Source: Bacteroidota bacterium
GTDB taxonomy: Bacteria > Bacteroidota > Ignavibacteria > Ignavibacteriales > Ignavibacteriaceae
DNA length: 64,000 bases
Direction of reading: 5' to 3'
NCBI GenBank assembly: GCA_022562275.1
Contig: JADFPP010000001.1
Span: 1-64,000, forward strand
The number at the start of each line of letters is the position of its first letter. The first letter of the stretch is position 1. A model generated the notes under the pieces. It was not told where the DNA came from. It made no database searches and worked only from the letters and a program-made list of their open reading frames with translations. The position numbers and the translations under genes were made by a program. Shown here one piece after another: positions 19,339-48,545 of this stretch.

Positions 19339-22300
19339 ATGAGTTGGATAAAAGATTTAATATCACCTGAAACCCGCGAGTGGGAAGAGTTTTACAGAAA
19401 CCGCTTTCAGCATGATAAAGTTGTAAGAAGTACACACGGTGTTAACTGTACAGGAGGATGTTCCTGGCAGATTCATGTTAAGGATGGAATCGTTGTTTGG
19501 GAAACCCAGCAATTAGATTACCCTTTACTTGAAAGCAGTCTGCCTCCTTACGAACCGCGCGGCTGCCAGAGAGGAATTTCATTTTCATGGTATCTATATA
19601 GTCCGTTAAGAATTAAGTACCCATTAATAAGAGGTAAACTGCTTGATGCTTATCGCGAAGAAAAAGAAAAAACCGGAGATTCTTTACAAGCCTGGGAAAA
19701 TCTTCAAAACAATAAAGAGAAGAGAAAAGAATATCAAACAGCAAGAGGTAAAGGCGGGTTTAGAAGGACTACCTGGGATGAAGTGCTTGAGATTATGGCG
19801 GCTGCAAATATTTACACAGCAAAAAAATATGGTCCTGATCGATTAGTCGGCTTCTCCCCAATTCCTGCAATGTCTATGTTAAGTTACGCAGCTGGAAGTA
19901 GATTTCTACAATTGTTTGGTGGAGTGAACCTTAGTTTTTATGATTGGTATTGCGATCTTCCAAATGCTTCACCGGAAATATGGGGTGAGCAGACAGATGT
20001 TTGCGAAAGTGCTGATTGGTATAATTCAAAGTTTATTGCAGTTATGGGTGCAAACCTGAATATGACCAGAACACCTGATTGTCACTTCTTCGCGGAGTCC
20101 CGGCATAACGGTACCAAAGCTGTGGTATTCTCACCTGATTTTAGTCAGGTTTCAAAGTATGCTGATCAATGGATTCCATTGCACGCAGGCAGCGACGGAG
20201 CTTACTGGATGGCTGTTACTCATGTAATATTAAAAGAATTTCATCATGAGAAACAAACTCCCTACTTCATCGATTATGTGAAGAAATATACCGACTCACC
20301 CTATTTAGTTGAAGTTGTAAAAGATGGTAATACTTACAAGCCGGGAAGATTAGTTCGTGCCAATCAAATATCAAAATATAAAAATGTAGAAAACGGTGAT
20401 TGGAAGTTCCTTAATATTGATGAGAAGAGCGGCGATCTTGTAATGCCTAAAGGAAGTATGGGGCACCGCTGGGATGAAAAAGGCGGCAACTGGAATATGA
20501 AACATGAAGATGCTGAAGATAACAAACAGTATAATCCTTTACTCACTCTTCTTAATAATAATGATGAAGTGTTACAGGTTGAGTTTACTGAATTTGGTTT
20601 AGATAATAAAAGAATGCGTGGAGTGCCGGTAAAAAATATTGAAACGATTGATGGAAAGAAGATTACAGTTACAACTGTTTACGATTTAACAATGGCTCAG
20701 TATGGCGTCAGCAGGGGTCTCAAAGGAGATTACCCTGAAGATTACAATGACAAAGATGCTGCATACACACCGGCGTGGCAGGAAATATTCACGGGTGTAG
20801 ATAAAAAAACAGTTGTACAATTTGCAAGAGAGTGGGCAAAAACAGCTGAAGTAACTGAAGGTAAATGTATGATCATTATCGGTGCGGGAGTAAACCACTG
20901 GTATCATAATAATCTCATTTACCGTGCAGGCATTATGGCGCTTATGCTATCCGGCTGCATTGGCAAGAATGGCGGCGGATTGAATCACTATGTTGGACAG
21001 GAAAAATTAGCTCCAATGGATTCTTGGAGTACTATTGCTTTTGCCAAAGATTGGCAGGATGCTGTGAGGTTACAGCAGGCGCCTATCTGGCATTATATTA
21101 ACACATGCCAGTACCGTTACGATGGTCATTTTTCAGAATATAACAAAGTGCCTGATAATGAATGGACAAAGGGGCATCTCGCAGATCATATTTATAGATC
21201 TGTAAGGATGGGCTGGATGCCTTTCTATCCGCAGTTTAACAAAAACACTTTTGAGTTAAGTAAGGAAGCCATAAACAACGGCGCCAAAAACGATGACGAA
21301 ATTAAAAAGTATGTTCTTGAAAAATTAAAATCAAAAGAACTTCATTATTCTATCAGTGATCCTGAGGCAGAGGAGAACTTCCCAAGAACCTGGTACATCT
21401 GGCGTGGTAACGCAATAATGGGAAGTATGAAAGGTCACGAATATCTTTTAAAACATTACCTCGGTACTCATTCAAACGCAATTGGAAAAGATATAACCGA
21501 TCAGAAAACTGAAGAAGTTAAGTGGCATGATATTGCACCAAAAGGAAAAATGGATCTTGTTGTAGATCTTAACTTCCGGATGGATTCCTCAGCGCTCTAT
21601 TCCGATATTATATTGCCTGCAGCTTCATGGTATGAAAAAGCAGATCTTAACAGTACCGATATGCATTCATTTATTCATCCTTTATCTGCAGCAATCGCAC
21701 CTGTTTGGGAATCAAAAACCGATTGGGATATATTCAAACTTATTGCCTTTGCAACAAGTGAGCTTGCTAAGAAACATTTTTCTGAACCGCTTAAAGATAT
21801 TGTAATTGCTCCTCTTGCACACGATACTGCTGATGAAATAACCCAGCCGACTGTTAAAGATTGGTATAAAGGTGAATGCGAAGCCATCCCTGGAAAAACA
21901 ATGCACAAGATTGCAATCGTGGAGAGAGATTATACAAAACTATATGATAAGTTTATCACTTTAGGTGAGAAAATTAAAACAAACGGACTCGGTGCGCATG
22001 GTAATCATTATATGTGTGAAGATTTTTATGATGAAATGATTGAATCCGCACATTTTCCGGTAGAAAAACTTAACGGTAAAACTTATCCTTCTCTTAAAGA
22101 AGATGTTTCGGCTGCTAATGCCGTATTGTTCCTTTCATCTTTAACAAACGGTGAGCTTACTGTTCGTGCATATAAAAATGCAGAAAAGAAAACAGGACTC
22201 GTTCTTGCCGATTTAGGTGAAGGAAGCAGGGATGTTAAAATTGATTACAAAGATTTGCAAGCACAACCAAGAAGATATAACTCTTCACCCTTATGGTCAG

Positions 22301-22959
22301 GGCTTATGCATAACGGCAGAGCGTACTCAGCATTTACCTACAATGTTGAAAGATTAGTTCCCTGGAGAACATTAACAGGTCGCCAGCATTTCTATTTAGA
22401 TCACGAGATGTACTTAGCTTTTGGTGAAAACCTTCCAACTTATAAGCCATCACCCAAACCTGAAGTTTACGGTGATTTAAGAGAGACTTTAAAAGAAGGT
22501 AAAGCAAAAATATTCAACTGCCTTACACCTCATGGTAAGTGGCATATACATTCAACTTACGGCGATACGCTTAGGATGTTAACCCTTTCCCGTGGATGTG
22601 AACCTTGCTGGATAAATGAAGAAGATGCAAAAGATCTCGGTATTAATGATAATGATTTTGTAGAAGTTTATAACGATCACGGTGTTTATTGCACGCGTGC
22701 CTGCGTAAGCAGCAGGATTCCAAAAGGAGTTACAATTGTTTACCACGTACCGGAACGAACAGTAGGTATTGTCAAATCTCAGGTAAGAGGGAATAAACGT
22801 GCCGGCGGACATAACAGCTTTACCCGCATTCATTTAAAACCAAACCTGCTTGCTGGCGGTTACGGACAGTTCACTTATCACTTTAATTACTGGGGTCCAA
22901 CTGCTGTAAACAGGGATACACACGTTGTAATTAAAAAGATGACTAAAGTCGTTTATTAA
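19339..22959 (+). CDS. narG: Respiratory nitrate reductase alpha subunit
   Basis: A 1206-residue molybdopterin enzyme that reduces nitrate to nitrite. The FS0 cluster motif is present as H33-x3-C37-x3-C41-x34-C76, with histidine replacing the first cysteine, as in E. coli NarG. The segment [20 protein letters not shown] contains the aspartate that binds molybdenum in this family. There is no twin-arginine export signal, so it should stay in the cytoplasm like classic Nar. The C-terminal dinucleotide-binding domain is complete. It lies 34 bases after the cytochrome gene and is separated from narH by an unusual 275-base gap. It needs the cofactor made by the moa/moe/mob operon. Confidence 0.97.
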
Positions 22960-23234
22960 TTTATCCCGCATTTTGCGGGATGATTTAATAGATATGAATT
23001 ATTAAAATAATTATAAACCGTTAAAACGGTTAGAAATATTGTTAAGTTATTCTTAACCCACGACTTAAGTCGTGGGTTAATGAAAACCAAAAAAGACTCG
23101 AACCGTTTTAACGGTTTTCATTAAGTTTTTAAGTGAACTTATTTATGATTTTTAATAATGGATAAAGAAGAACTTAAGAAACGGACAGAAAAAACAATAG
23201 TAAATAATCAATAATAAATAGAAAATTAAAAATT
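22960..23234. repeat. Nested palindromes in the narG-narH gap
   Basis: A short hairpin (ATCCCGC, five-base loop, GCGGGAT) lies at 22963-22981, right after the narG stop. Two copies of an AACCGTT-type palindrome follow in mirror order: AACCGTTAAAACGGTT at 23016-23031 and AACCGTTTTAACGGTT at 23101-23116. They flank a perfect 28-base palindrome centred on CTTAAG at 23053-23080. The whole unit looks like a composite REP/MITE-type element. At 23158 an 18-residue open frame (MDKEELKKRTEKTIVNNQ) precedes narH. It may be the stump of a four-helix-bundle gene. Confidence 0.75.
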
Positions 23235-24785
23235 ATGGATGTCAGATCACAAGTTTCAATGCTTTTTCATCTTGATAAATGTATTGGCTGCCACACATGC
23301 TCTATTGCATGTAAAAATATTTGGACCGATAGAAAAGGTGCAGAATATATGTGGTGGAATAATGTCGAGACAAAACCTGGTACTGGCTACCCTACTAAAT
23401 GGGAAGACCAGGATATTTATAAAGGCGGATGGGAAAAGAACGGTAAAAGTGTATCACTAAAAGGTTCAGGAAAATTAAAAGGATTGGTTAACATATTTCA
23501 CAATCCCCATCTTCCTGTTATAGATGATTACTACGAACCGTGGACGTACAAGTATTCAGATCTAATTGAAGCACCTGCACAGGATGACCAGCCGACTGCA
23601 AGACCAATATCACTTATCACAGGCAAACCAATTGAAATAAAAGCCGGACCAAACTGGGATGATGATTTAAGCGGTACACCAGATTATGCAAGGAAAGATC
23701 CAAACCTGCAAAACCTCTCCCCTGCTGAACAGGAAGCAATGTTCCAGCTTGAAAAGATGGCATTCTTTTATCTTCCAAGAATTTGTAATCATTGTCTTAA
23801 TCCAGCTTGCGTTGCCTCTTGTCCATCAGGTGCAATTTACAAACGCGGCGAAGATGGAGTAGTTCTTATAAACCAGAAAGTATGCCGTGCGTGGAGAATG
23901 TGTGTTACAGCATGTCCCTATAAAAAATCATACTACAACTGGAGCACAGGAAAATCTGAAAAATGTATTTTATGCTATCCAAGAATTGAATCGGGAATTG
24001 CTCCTGCTTGTATGCATTCCTGCGTAGGAAGAATAAGGTACCTGGGTGTTATGCTTTACGATGCTGACAGGATCAACGAAGTTGCCTCCGCAGATATAAA
24101 CAATCTCGTCAACAGCCAGTTAGATATTATCCTCGATCCGTTTGATGAAGACGTAATTGCTTCAGCGAAGGAAAACGGCGTTGCAGATTCCACAATAAAA
24201 GCTGCACAAGATTCTCCCGTTTACAAGTTCGTAAAAGAATGGGGCATTGCATTACCGTTGCATCCTGAGTTTAGAACTTTACCGATGTTGTTTTATGTTC
24301 CACCAATGTTGCCCGTTATGGCATCTTTAAGCGAACAGAGAAATAAAGAACAGCTTGATAAGCTTGATCCTATTGCAAAAAAATGGGATGATGATTGGCT
24401 TTACGATACCAGCACAGAAGAATTATGGGGAACAATTGAAGAGGCAAGGTTCCCGCTTCAGTATATGGCAAATCTATTTAGTGCCGGCGATACTTGCAAA
24501 ATAAAAGATATTATGAAAAAGCTTATGGCTGTAAGAATTCACCGCAGGGACAAAACCGTTGGCGATCTTGATAAAGAAAATGTTAAAAAAACATTAAAAG
24601 ATGTTAATCTAAGCACCGACGAAGCAGATGACATTTACTATTTAACTTCTCTTGCAAAATTTGATGACCGTTTTGTTATACCTCCTGCACACCGCGAACA
24701 AGCTATTGAGATGATTGAAAATACAGGTGATGTAAAAGGTTCAAGCGGTTTTGGTTTTATAGAAAAACCTGCAAGAGGAATTTGA
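23235..24785 (+). CDS. narH: Respiratory nitrate reductase beta subunit
   Basis: This 516-residue electron-transfer subunit carries one 3Fe-4S and three 4Fe-4S clusters. The cysteine groups are CIGCHTCSIACKNIW near residue 16, CNHCLNPACVASCPSG near 186, CRAWRMCVTACPYKK near 219 (tryptophan in place of one cysteine, the mark of the 3Fe-4S site) and CILCYPRIESGIAPACMHSC near 246. These match NarH of E. coli in order. It moves electrons from NarI haem to NarG. Start ATG 23235 opens the conserved MDVRSQVSM. It is followed closely by narJ. Confidence 0.97.
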   Translation: MDVRSQVSMLFHLDKCIGCHTCSIACKNIWTDRKGAEYMWWNNVETKPGTGYPTKWEDQDIYKGGWEKNGKSVSLKGSGKLKGLVNIFHNPHLPVIDDYYEPWTYKYSDLIEAPAQDDQPTARPISLITGKPIEIKAGPNWDDDLSGTPDYARKDPNLQNLSPAEQEAMFQLEKMAFFYLPRICNHCLNPACVASCPSGAIYKRGEDGVVLINQKVCRAWRMCVTACPYKKSYYNWSTGKSEKCILCYPRIESGIAPACMHSCVGRIRYLGVMLYDADRINEVASADINNLVNSQLDIILDPFDEDVIASAKENGVADSTIKAAQDSPVYKFVKEWGIALPLHPEFRTLPMLFYVPPMLPVMASLSEQRNKEQLDKLDPIAKKWDDDWLYDTSTEELWGTIEEARFPLQYMANLFSAGDTCKIKDIMKKLMAVRIHRRDKTVGDLDKENVKKTLKDVNLSTDEADDIYYLTSLAKFDDRFVIPPAHREQAIEMIENTGDVKGSSGFGFIEKPARGI

Positions 24786-30295: not shown

Positions 30296-30490
30296 ATGCC
30301 AAGAAAAATAAGAGAATTGATCAAAGATTTAGAAAAAGCTGGCTTTATCAATCGTGGTGGTAAAGGAAGTCATAGAAATTATATACATCCATCTGGTGTG
30401 GTTCTAACGATTTCAGGAAAACTTGGAGATGATGCCAAACATTATCAGGAAAAAATAATTAAACAAAAAATTCAGGAAGTAACAAAATGA
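30296..30490 (+). CDS. hicA: HicA-type mRNA interferase toxin
   Basis: This 64-residue protein shows the HicA double-stranded-RNA-binding fold. It has RELIKDLEKAGFINRGGKGSH with the conserved glycine and catalytic histidine (GSHRNY), then a beta hairpin (VVLTISGKLGDD). HicA cleaves mRNA when free of HicB. It starts at ATG 30296 and overlaps hicB by four bases (ATGA). The direct repeats just before it may be its operator. Confidence 0.9.
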   Translation: MPRKIRELIKDLEKAGFINRGGKGSHRNYIHPSGVVLTISGKLGDDAKHYQEKIIKQKIQEVTK

Positions 30491-30822
30491 GAGAGAAAGA
30501 CAAATATTTAAAAATAGTAGAATGGTCAGCGGAAGATAATTGTTATGTTGGGTCAATTCCAGGATGGATTGGCAAATGCTGTCATGGTAATGATGAATTG
30601 AAAGTTTATCAAGAACTTTCTAAAATTCTTAATAAGTGGATCGAAACTTATAAAAAAGACAAACGTCCATTACCGCATCCTACTCATAAGAAGTATTCTG
30701 GAAAATTTGTCTTACGTACGGGTCCAGAATTACATCAAGCTCTTGCTCTTAAAGCGTTAAATGAGGGTGAAAGTCTGAATAAGTATTTAGTCAAAAGATT
30801 AAAATCAGTTGTTTCGGGCTAA
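30487..30822 (+). CDS. hicB: HicB-type antitoxin
   Basis: This 111-residue partner of HicA has an N-terminal HicB fold (YLKIVEWSAEDNCYVGSIPG, the usual E/D-rich strand). A C-terminal ribbon-helix-helix-like DNA-binding segment (RTGPELHQALALKALNEGE, then SLNKYLVKRLKS) follows. HicB neutralises HicA and represses the operon. It overlaps the hicA end by four bases, as in most such pairs. Both genes look intact, unlike the other toxin-antitoxin loci of this window. Confidence 0.9.
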   Translation: MREKDKYLKIVEWSAEDNCYVGSIPGWIGKCCHGNDELKVYQELSKILNKWIETYKKDKRPLPHPTHKKYSGKFVLRTGPELHQALALKALNEGESLNKYLVKRLKSVVSG

Positions 30823-48173: not shown

Positions 48174-48545
48174 TTATACTGTCCGGTTTTCTGATTGATT
48201 TTCCATTGTTACCAGTTTTCCAATTATATTATCGTATTCTACAGATAAACGATTCGCTATATTTTTTTCGATATGTTCACATTCAAAAGAAAATTGAAGC
48301 CAGGTTTGTGTTTAAGCACTTTCGCCTTCAGAATCAACTAATTTTGCAATGAAGGATTTTGGATATCTCCTTTTTCTAAATGCTTCCCCAATATTTGCGC
48401 AAACTGATCTTGATGATCTTCTGATTTGATCGGTTAAAGAATATATTTCTTCTTTAGGAAAAGATTTTGAGATCTCGAAAATTTCCATTGCACATTTAAA
48501 TGCCAGTTTATAAACCTCCAATTCACGATGGTCGCGCATCTTCAA
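48174..48545 (-). pseudogene. Four-helix-bundle (23S rRNA IVS-type) protein, nonsense mutation
   Basis: The first 77 residues (RDHRELEVYKLAFKCAMEIF, then EISKSFPKEE and SSRSVCANIGEAFRKRRYPK) match the S23/four-helix-bundle family. They end in GESA followed by TAA (minus strand, near 48312). The same frame continues TQTWLQFSFECEHIEKNIAN to a stop at 48174-48176, giving the usual ~120 residues. A single change of a glutamate codon (GAA to TAA) explains the break. Repeats flank it on both sides. Confidence 0.75.

Follow-up and report, generated by a model that had tools for sequence, protein, structure and literature searches.

A dispersed palindromic repeat between narG and narH in an Ignavibacteriaceae bacterium and its association with Y1 transposase genes

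The 64,000-nucleotide (nt) stretch analyzed here, hereafter the window (positions 1 to 64,000 of contig JADFPP010000001.1, assembly GCA_022562275.1, Ignavibacteriaceae), carries the nitrate reductase genes narG and narH, which are parted by a gap containing a composite palindrome. We found that this composite palindrome is a dispersed repeat, one copy of a family present in this and related genomes. It comprises two 16-base palindromes, A and A', on either side of a 28-base central palindrome, B. Taken together, the evidence makes it probable that the gap holds an old, decayed non-autonomous A-B-A palindromic element, inserted next to a decayed intervening-sequence protein (IVP) gene between narG and narH, and that the core of this element is tied to a lineage of Y1 transposases. 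Unless a contig or locus handle is named, coordinates are positions within the window.

The gap spans 22960-23234, i.e., 275 bases between the narG stop at 22959 and the narH start at 23235, as the first-pass annotation of this DNA had stated. Palindrome A (AACCGTTAAAACGGTT) occupies 23016..23031, the central palindrome B (TTAACCCACGACTTAAGTCGTGGGTTAA) 23053..23080, and palindrome A' (AACCGTTTTAACGGTT) 23101..23116, the last recovered both by inverted-repeat search and as a match of the arm pattern; none of the three is assigned a strand. The central 28-base palindrome had been correctly described, and the AACCGTT palindromes that had been placed at both ends of the gap are real but enclose a core of 101 bases, not the gap in its entirety. 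By comparison with copies on contigs C38, C117, C131, C29, and C84, the limits of the whole element were drawn by eye at approximately 22994..23142 (+ strand). Its right end resembles the ATGAGTYCACT type described below and its left end is decayed or different; the right edge was placed at about 23138-23142 because the flank TATTTATGATTT matches locus L053.

To determine whether the repeat occurs elsewhere, the gap was searched against its own genome, giving 40 scored matches of 104 candidates, or about 21 places, the window included, after merging by eye. Allowing up to one mismatch, the arm pattern AACCGTTNNAACGGTT had 29 matches in the genome (20 exact; two are the window's own, A and A'), compared with 1 for a reversed control. 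Likewise, the 20-mer at the center of B with at most three mismatches had 15 matches (8 exact), the window's own included, against 0 for the control, and none in 100 shuffles of the window. Within the window the arm pattern was unremarkable at up to three mismatches (6 matches versus a mean of 2.75, with 5 of 100 shuffles reaching 6), A and A' being the two exact matches. The core was also matched in 29 of the 59 genomes searched, own included, with at most 14 candidates scored per genome. None of the titles and abstracts listed in a literature search of a limited collection described this repeat.

We then compared copies of the repeat, using 25 stretches from the own genome and 20 from relatives. 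The gap folds strongly, with a z-score of -8.29 for its 275 nt as RNA and -7.88 for the 131-nt stretch 23005-23135 as DNA, and in neither case did any of 200 shuffles fold as well. In 18 copies of the core, a model of separate hairpins gave 95.7% paired cells, with 13 cells changed on both sides; shuffles gave 3.7, and none of 500 attained 13. This count is inflated since these copies were chosen by a pattern favoring paired arms and are mutually related. Further pair types numbered 9 versus 7.0 in shuffles, 21 of 500 shuffles attaining this number. When the pattern was applied to 24 other loci, seven yielded no qualifying copy. A long pairing of A with A' was considered as the main structure and rejected: separate hairpins are preferred because no pair in the A-A' helix is changed on both sides. 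Pairing may have been kept through transposition, palindrome repair, or function. The palindromes also hold other short sequences. Loops of the A palindrome can carry hairpin inserts of about 20 nt, such as ACGCCTGAGGCGCACAGGTA, between the arms (L025, L031, L034, and L194), and short elements of other kinds, whose ends resemble AGACTGTGTGAA or AGCTTGTGTG, were seen by eye at the CTTAAG center of the B palindrome, with CTTAAG flanking the insert on both sides (L029, L030, and L194). Palindromes may be preferred targets.

Comparison of narG-narH junctions also supports the earlier suggestion that the gap marks an insertion. We examined 88 loci, of which 85 gave a gap length and 3 had no narG in the stretch. 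The premise that the two genes are normally adjacent proved fair, 61 of the 77 named junctions measured having a gap of at most 60 bases (one is a 1-base overlap). The genome search provided eight loci, including that of the own genome, with gaps of 275, 275, 171, 421, 416, 132, 415, and 144 bases. The second 275-base gap belongs to the sister genome G004, in which the element is 99% identical over 131 bases and NarH is 96% identical. The element was absent, by eye, from the six other, more distant related junctions; among the genome-search junctions only G004 shares the gap, and a gap common to all relatives, which would have implied a fixed feature, was not found. The same-genus genomes G001, G002, and G005 gave partial and weak NarH matches only. 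Ignavibacteriota records are among the NarH matches that carry names.

The right flank of the element carries the remains of a gene. An intact gene of about 120 codons beginning MDKEELK is found in the narG-narH gap of G003, G024, and G039. Of the three intact proteins, the two that were scanned matched PF05635 (E = 8.2e-13 at L052 and 1.5e-13 at L053), one of them also matched TIGR02436, and a genome scan placed PF05635 at all three junctions (L052, L053, and L055). Aligned with these genes, the short window frame MDKEELKKRTEKTIVNNQ, followed by a stop (23159..23215, + strand), keeps the start and end of the PF05635 gene, i.e., that of a 23S rRNA IVP or four-helix bundle protein, and lacks about 100 codons. 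Hence, the suspicion that this frame is the stump of another gene was borne out, although the in-frame nature of the deletion could be chance. PF05635 matches were present in all 7 genomes scanned (4 to 19 each, some broken) and in none of 14 well-known control genomes. A further match with one internal stop lies in the window at 48213-48527 on the - strand.

The proposed tie between the core and a transposase lineage was examined through Y1_Tnp matches, of which the own genome has 15, 14 of them above the cut-off. One Y1 gene, on contig C43 (85467-85925), has close relatives in G003, G048, G008, and G023 at 85, 80, 67, and 61% identity, and palindromes of the A kind stand on both sides of the gene in all five genomes (L267-L271; flanks read by eye). 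In G003 these palindromes are exact or have one mismatch, and in G008 and G023 (L270 and L271) they are altered but still paired. A strict A hairpin was found near 3 of the 5 loci of this lineage (own, G003, and G048), compared with 0 of 25 other loci of relatives (L272-L296) and 0 of 30 IVP loci. Genes of other Y1 lineages often have flanking palindromes of another sequence that likewise match each other (L272-L296 and own loci L010, L014, and L017), for example AACCAGT..ACTGGTT in L014 and L017. Nine such non-A patterns had 3 matches in 164,104 bases of own-genome DNA, a small and biased sample. At the settings given, the inverted-repeat search returned 0 pairs for L271 and 1 pair for L291.

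To evaluate this association more broadly, we scored perfect stems of at least 7 bases within 150 bases of each match, one Y1 and one IVP locus being dropped for short flanks. Perfect hairpins on both sides were found at 19 of 43 Y1 loci versus 0 of 29 IVP loci, with a mean of 0.06 of 43 from shuffled Y1 flanks; without two loci that are halves of an interrupted gene, the count was 18 of 41. The relatives' Y1 loci are not a random sample because they are the best matches of one search. This control, which draws only on IVP genes, takes the actual position of each match, and adds shuffled flanks, replaced an earlier one (18 of 39 Y1 loci versus 0 of 46) that held iron-sulfur (Fe-S) genes matched only in part, with coding flanks. 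An identical 7-mer arm occurred on the left and right at 8 of 17 Y1 loci, compared with 5 of 272 cross pairs. As for the protein, it scores 66.4 bits for IS200/IS605 (cut-off, 55) and 25.7 bits, under the cut-off of 80, for the REP (repetitive extragenic palindrome)-associated family. The motifs [DN]H.H and Y---Q--HH occurred in one frame in 36 of 45 Y1 loci, including the C43 gene, which is counted twice in this set.

Many copies of the repeat also lie within elements with inverted ends. One subtype ends in CTCAAGTTGACCG, and a script collected 29 candidate elements of this type, at least 4 of which are chance matches in unrelated nar loci. A perfect 8-bp duplication flanked 9 of these 29, compared with 0.25% of mismatched flank pairs, and one copy interrupts a Y1 transposase gene with an 8-bp duplication seen by eye. 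The sequence CTCAAGTTGACCGGT, with at most one mismatch, was present in 26 of 59 genomes. In G048 (L201), a 1,370-bp insertion sequence has CTCAAGTTGACCG-like ends differing at 1 and 2 of 13 bases and 8-bp flanks differing by one base, and encodes a transposase broken in two frames (DDE_5 and DDE_Tnp_1) whose halves score under the IS701 and IS4 cut-offs. The same-genus genome G003 carries part of a similar transposase at the end of a contig; neither the own genome nor G004 yielded one. A pair of CTCAAGTTGACCG-like ends separated by 2.1 kb, also in G003 (L189), was considered as a full insertion sequence and rejected, as the frames between them resemble, by eye, a cation transporter and a toxin-antitoxin pair, with no transposase. 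At L190-L193, four contigs of G049 stop some 60 to 90 bases past a CTCAAGTTGACCG end, as expected if a longer insertion sequence were present in multiple copies. The other end type, ATGAGTYCACT, was accompanied by duplications of 2 bp at 9 of 16 candidates (TA in five of these cases) versus 16% in mismatched pairs, with no longer duplication. In 46 stretches we counted 29 A-A pairs, 27 of which include B. An end of the CTCAAGTTGACCG type adjoins 16 of the pairs, on one or both sides; 5 have the ATGAGT type only, and 8 have no recognised end. The CTCAAGTTGACCG inverted ends were not found on the window copy.

These two sets of observations point to different agents of movement. The family might consist purely of miniature inverted-repeat transposable elements (MITEs), i.e., short derivatives of DDE transposons in which the palindromic core is passive filling and the proximity of Y1 genes reflects the clustering of mobile elements. 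The 8-bp duplications, the insertion sequence with like ends, the 2-bp duplications at ATGAGT-type ends (9 of 16, 5 of 9 TA, control 16%), and the 16 of 29 A-A pairs with a CTCAAGTTGACCG-type end all speak for this account, which is possible but which we lean against. It does not readily accommodate the variety of surroundings around one core (8 of 29 A-A pairs without a recognised end and 5 of the ATGAGT type only), nor one Y1 lineage flanked on both sides by palindromes in five genomes, altered yet paired in two, nor the matched hairpins at Y1 loci of other lineages. Conversely, the A-B-A core could itself be moved as single-stranded hairpin DNA by a Y1 transposase, in the manner of REPINs (REP doublets forming hairpins), with the inverted ends captured later. 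This might well be so, at a little short of an even chance in our judgment. The flanking of Y1 genes, left and right, by palindromes that match each other at a given locus, the dispersal of the copies, and the paired changes in the hairpins fit this account, while the absence of a GT[AG]G foot by the window-copy palindromes, a protein that scores as IS200/IS605 (66.4, cut-off 55) and under the REP-associated cut-off (25.7 versus 80), and clear target duplications in one subtype, a DDE feature, do not. Finally, a regulatory RNA or attenuator tuning narG against narH would explain the strong fold and a position kept in two species. We consider it very improbable, since the same repeat stands at many other places, six other related nar junctions are without it, the plus strand has no terminator-like site, and no Rfam family reaches its gathering score in 22700-23500.

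Several observations weigh against the account given at the outset. Twelve of the 15 own-genome Y1 matches have no nearby A hairpin, and two of the remaining three represent the two pieces of a single gene that a copy has split. The own-genome gene of the lineage has one intact palindrome, the left one being decayed, and that of G048 (L269) has an exact palindrome on one side, the left palindrome having a longer loop and being separated from the match by about 75 bases. Genomes G004, G018, and G013 are rich in copies, yet their best-scoring Y1 matches reach no more than 44, 40, and 42% identity with the C43 lineage. The family does not fit a single transposase type, two types each suiting another part of it, and the choice of core copies noted above tempers the paired changes. 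The one end recognised by script on the window copy is a weak right-hand end of the ATGAGT type, and no clear target duplication was seen by eye.

On balance, we favor a decayed A-B-A element whose core would belong with an IS200-like Y1 (HUH) transposase lineage whose gene is flanked by the same palindromes, much as REPINs belong with their REP-associated tyrosine transposases (RAYTs). Many copies would have been dispersed as parts of short elements bearing inverted ends of the DDE type, and one such type of end fits an IS701/IS4-like transposase. Insertion of the window copy most likely predates the split from the sister species G004; this copy then most likely lost or changed its left end, so that it would now be immobile. 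Any effect on narGH would putatively be exerted through hairpins in the messenger. A bolder version, which we regard as unlikely, is that each subclass 1.2-like Y1 of this lineage keeps its own A-type and B-type palindromes, REP-like without the GTAG foot, and that, with the A-B-A core lying inside elements with several DDE-type ends, one repeat answers to two unrelated transposases. In the favored reading, an odd gap becomes traceable mobile DNA, a respiratory operon is seen to take up inserts between the genes of two of its subunits in this lineage, and REP-like structures may occur with a subclass of transposases that has been described as generally without them.

The genes and signals around the element are otherwise as follows. 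The narG frame (19339..22959, + strand) encodes a 1,206-amino-acid alpha subunit matching PF00384 (E = 1.1e-60) and PF01568 (E = 9.3e-17), and its homolog adjoins narH in relatives; narH (23235..24785, + strand) encodes a 516-amino-acid beta subunit matching PF13247 (E = 6.1e-36) and PF14711 (E = 1.3e-15). Directly 3' of the narG stop, a small hairpin with a TATCCCGCA-type stem (22961..22983, no strand assigned) was recovered as an inverted repeat and a folded stem; it is identical in G004 and was not called as a terminator. An AT-rich leader before narH (23195..23234, + strand) is common to relatives, judging by eye from the last 40 bases of ten junctions, L056 being the least similar. Within 22800-23400, no terminator-like site was found on the plus strand, and the two on the minus strand are the two A palindromes. 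A scan for sigma-70-type promoters found 2 versus a mean of 3.0, and a Bacteroidota-type promoter pattern occurred 6 times in the window versus 5.67 expected, with none in the gap. All eight Rfam matches in 22700-23500 were weak and under their gathering scores. Co-transcription of narG and narH is predicted and likely. Elsewhere in the window, two adjoining small frames (30296-30822) resemble by eye a HicA/HicB toxin-antitoxin pair. At another junction, L098 (Saprospiraceae), a 756-base narG-narH gap encodes a protein resembling, by eye, an iron-sulfur repair protein (RIC/YtfE).

Among known systems, REPINs or bacterial interspersed mosaic elements (BIMEs) with their RAYTs (TnpA-REP) share with this family dispersed palindromes in a mirror arrangement, a Y1 HUH gene flanked by the same palindromes, and palindromes particular to each lineage. 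They differ in that the three palindromes of the window copy, the copy scanned, have no GT[AG]G foot within 8 bases to the left or right, in that the transposase scores as IS200/IS605 and bears the signature of TnpA-Y1 subclass 1.2, and in that many copies lie within inverted-end elements. Palindrome-associated elements of IS200/IS605 are small palindromic non-autonomous relatives of an IS200/IS605-type system, and resemble this family in that respect. With IS701/IS4-like insertion sequences and their MITEs, other copies share the CTCAAGTTGACCG ends and the duplication of about 8 bp, as around the DDE_5 transposase in L201, whereas the window copy is without these ends. The stump belongs to the same family, PF05635/TIGR02436, as the 23S rRNA intervening-sequence protein genes described in PMC4990558, but the stump and the junction genes sit between protein genes and not inside a 23S rRNA gene. 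Lastly, [DN]H.H with Y---Q--HH is the signature of TnpA-Y1 subclass 1.2, which PMC6006769 describes as generally without typical terminal IS200 structures; most of the genes studied here share this signature, but the genes are often flanked by palindromes. This association of palindromes with subclass 1.2-like Y1 genes is the new finding here and is correlational.
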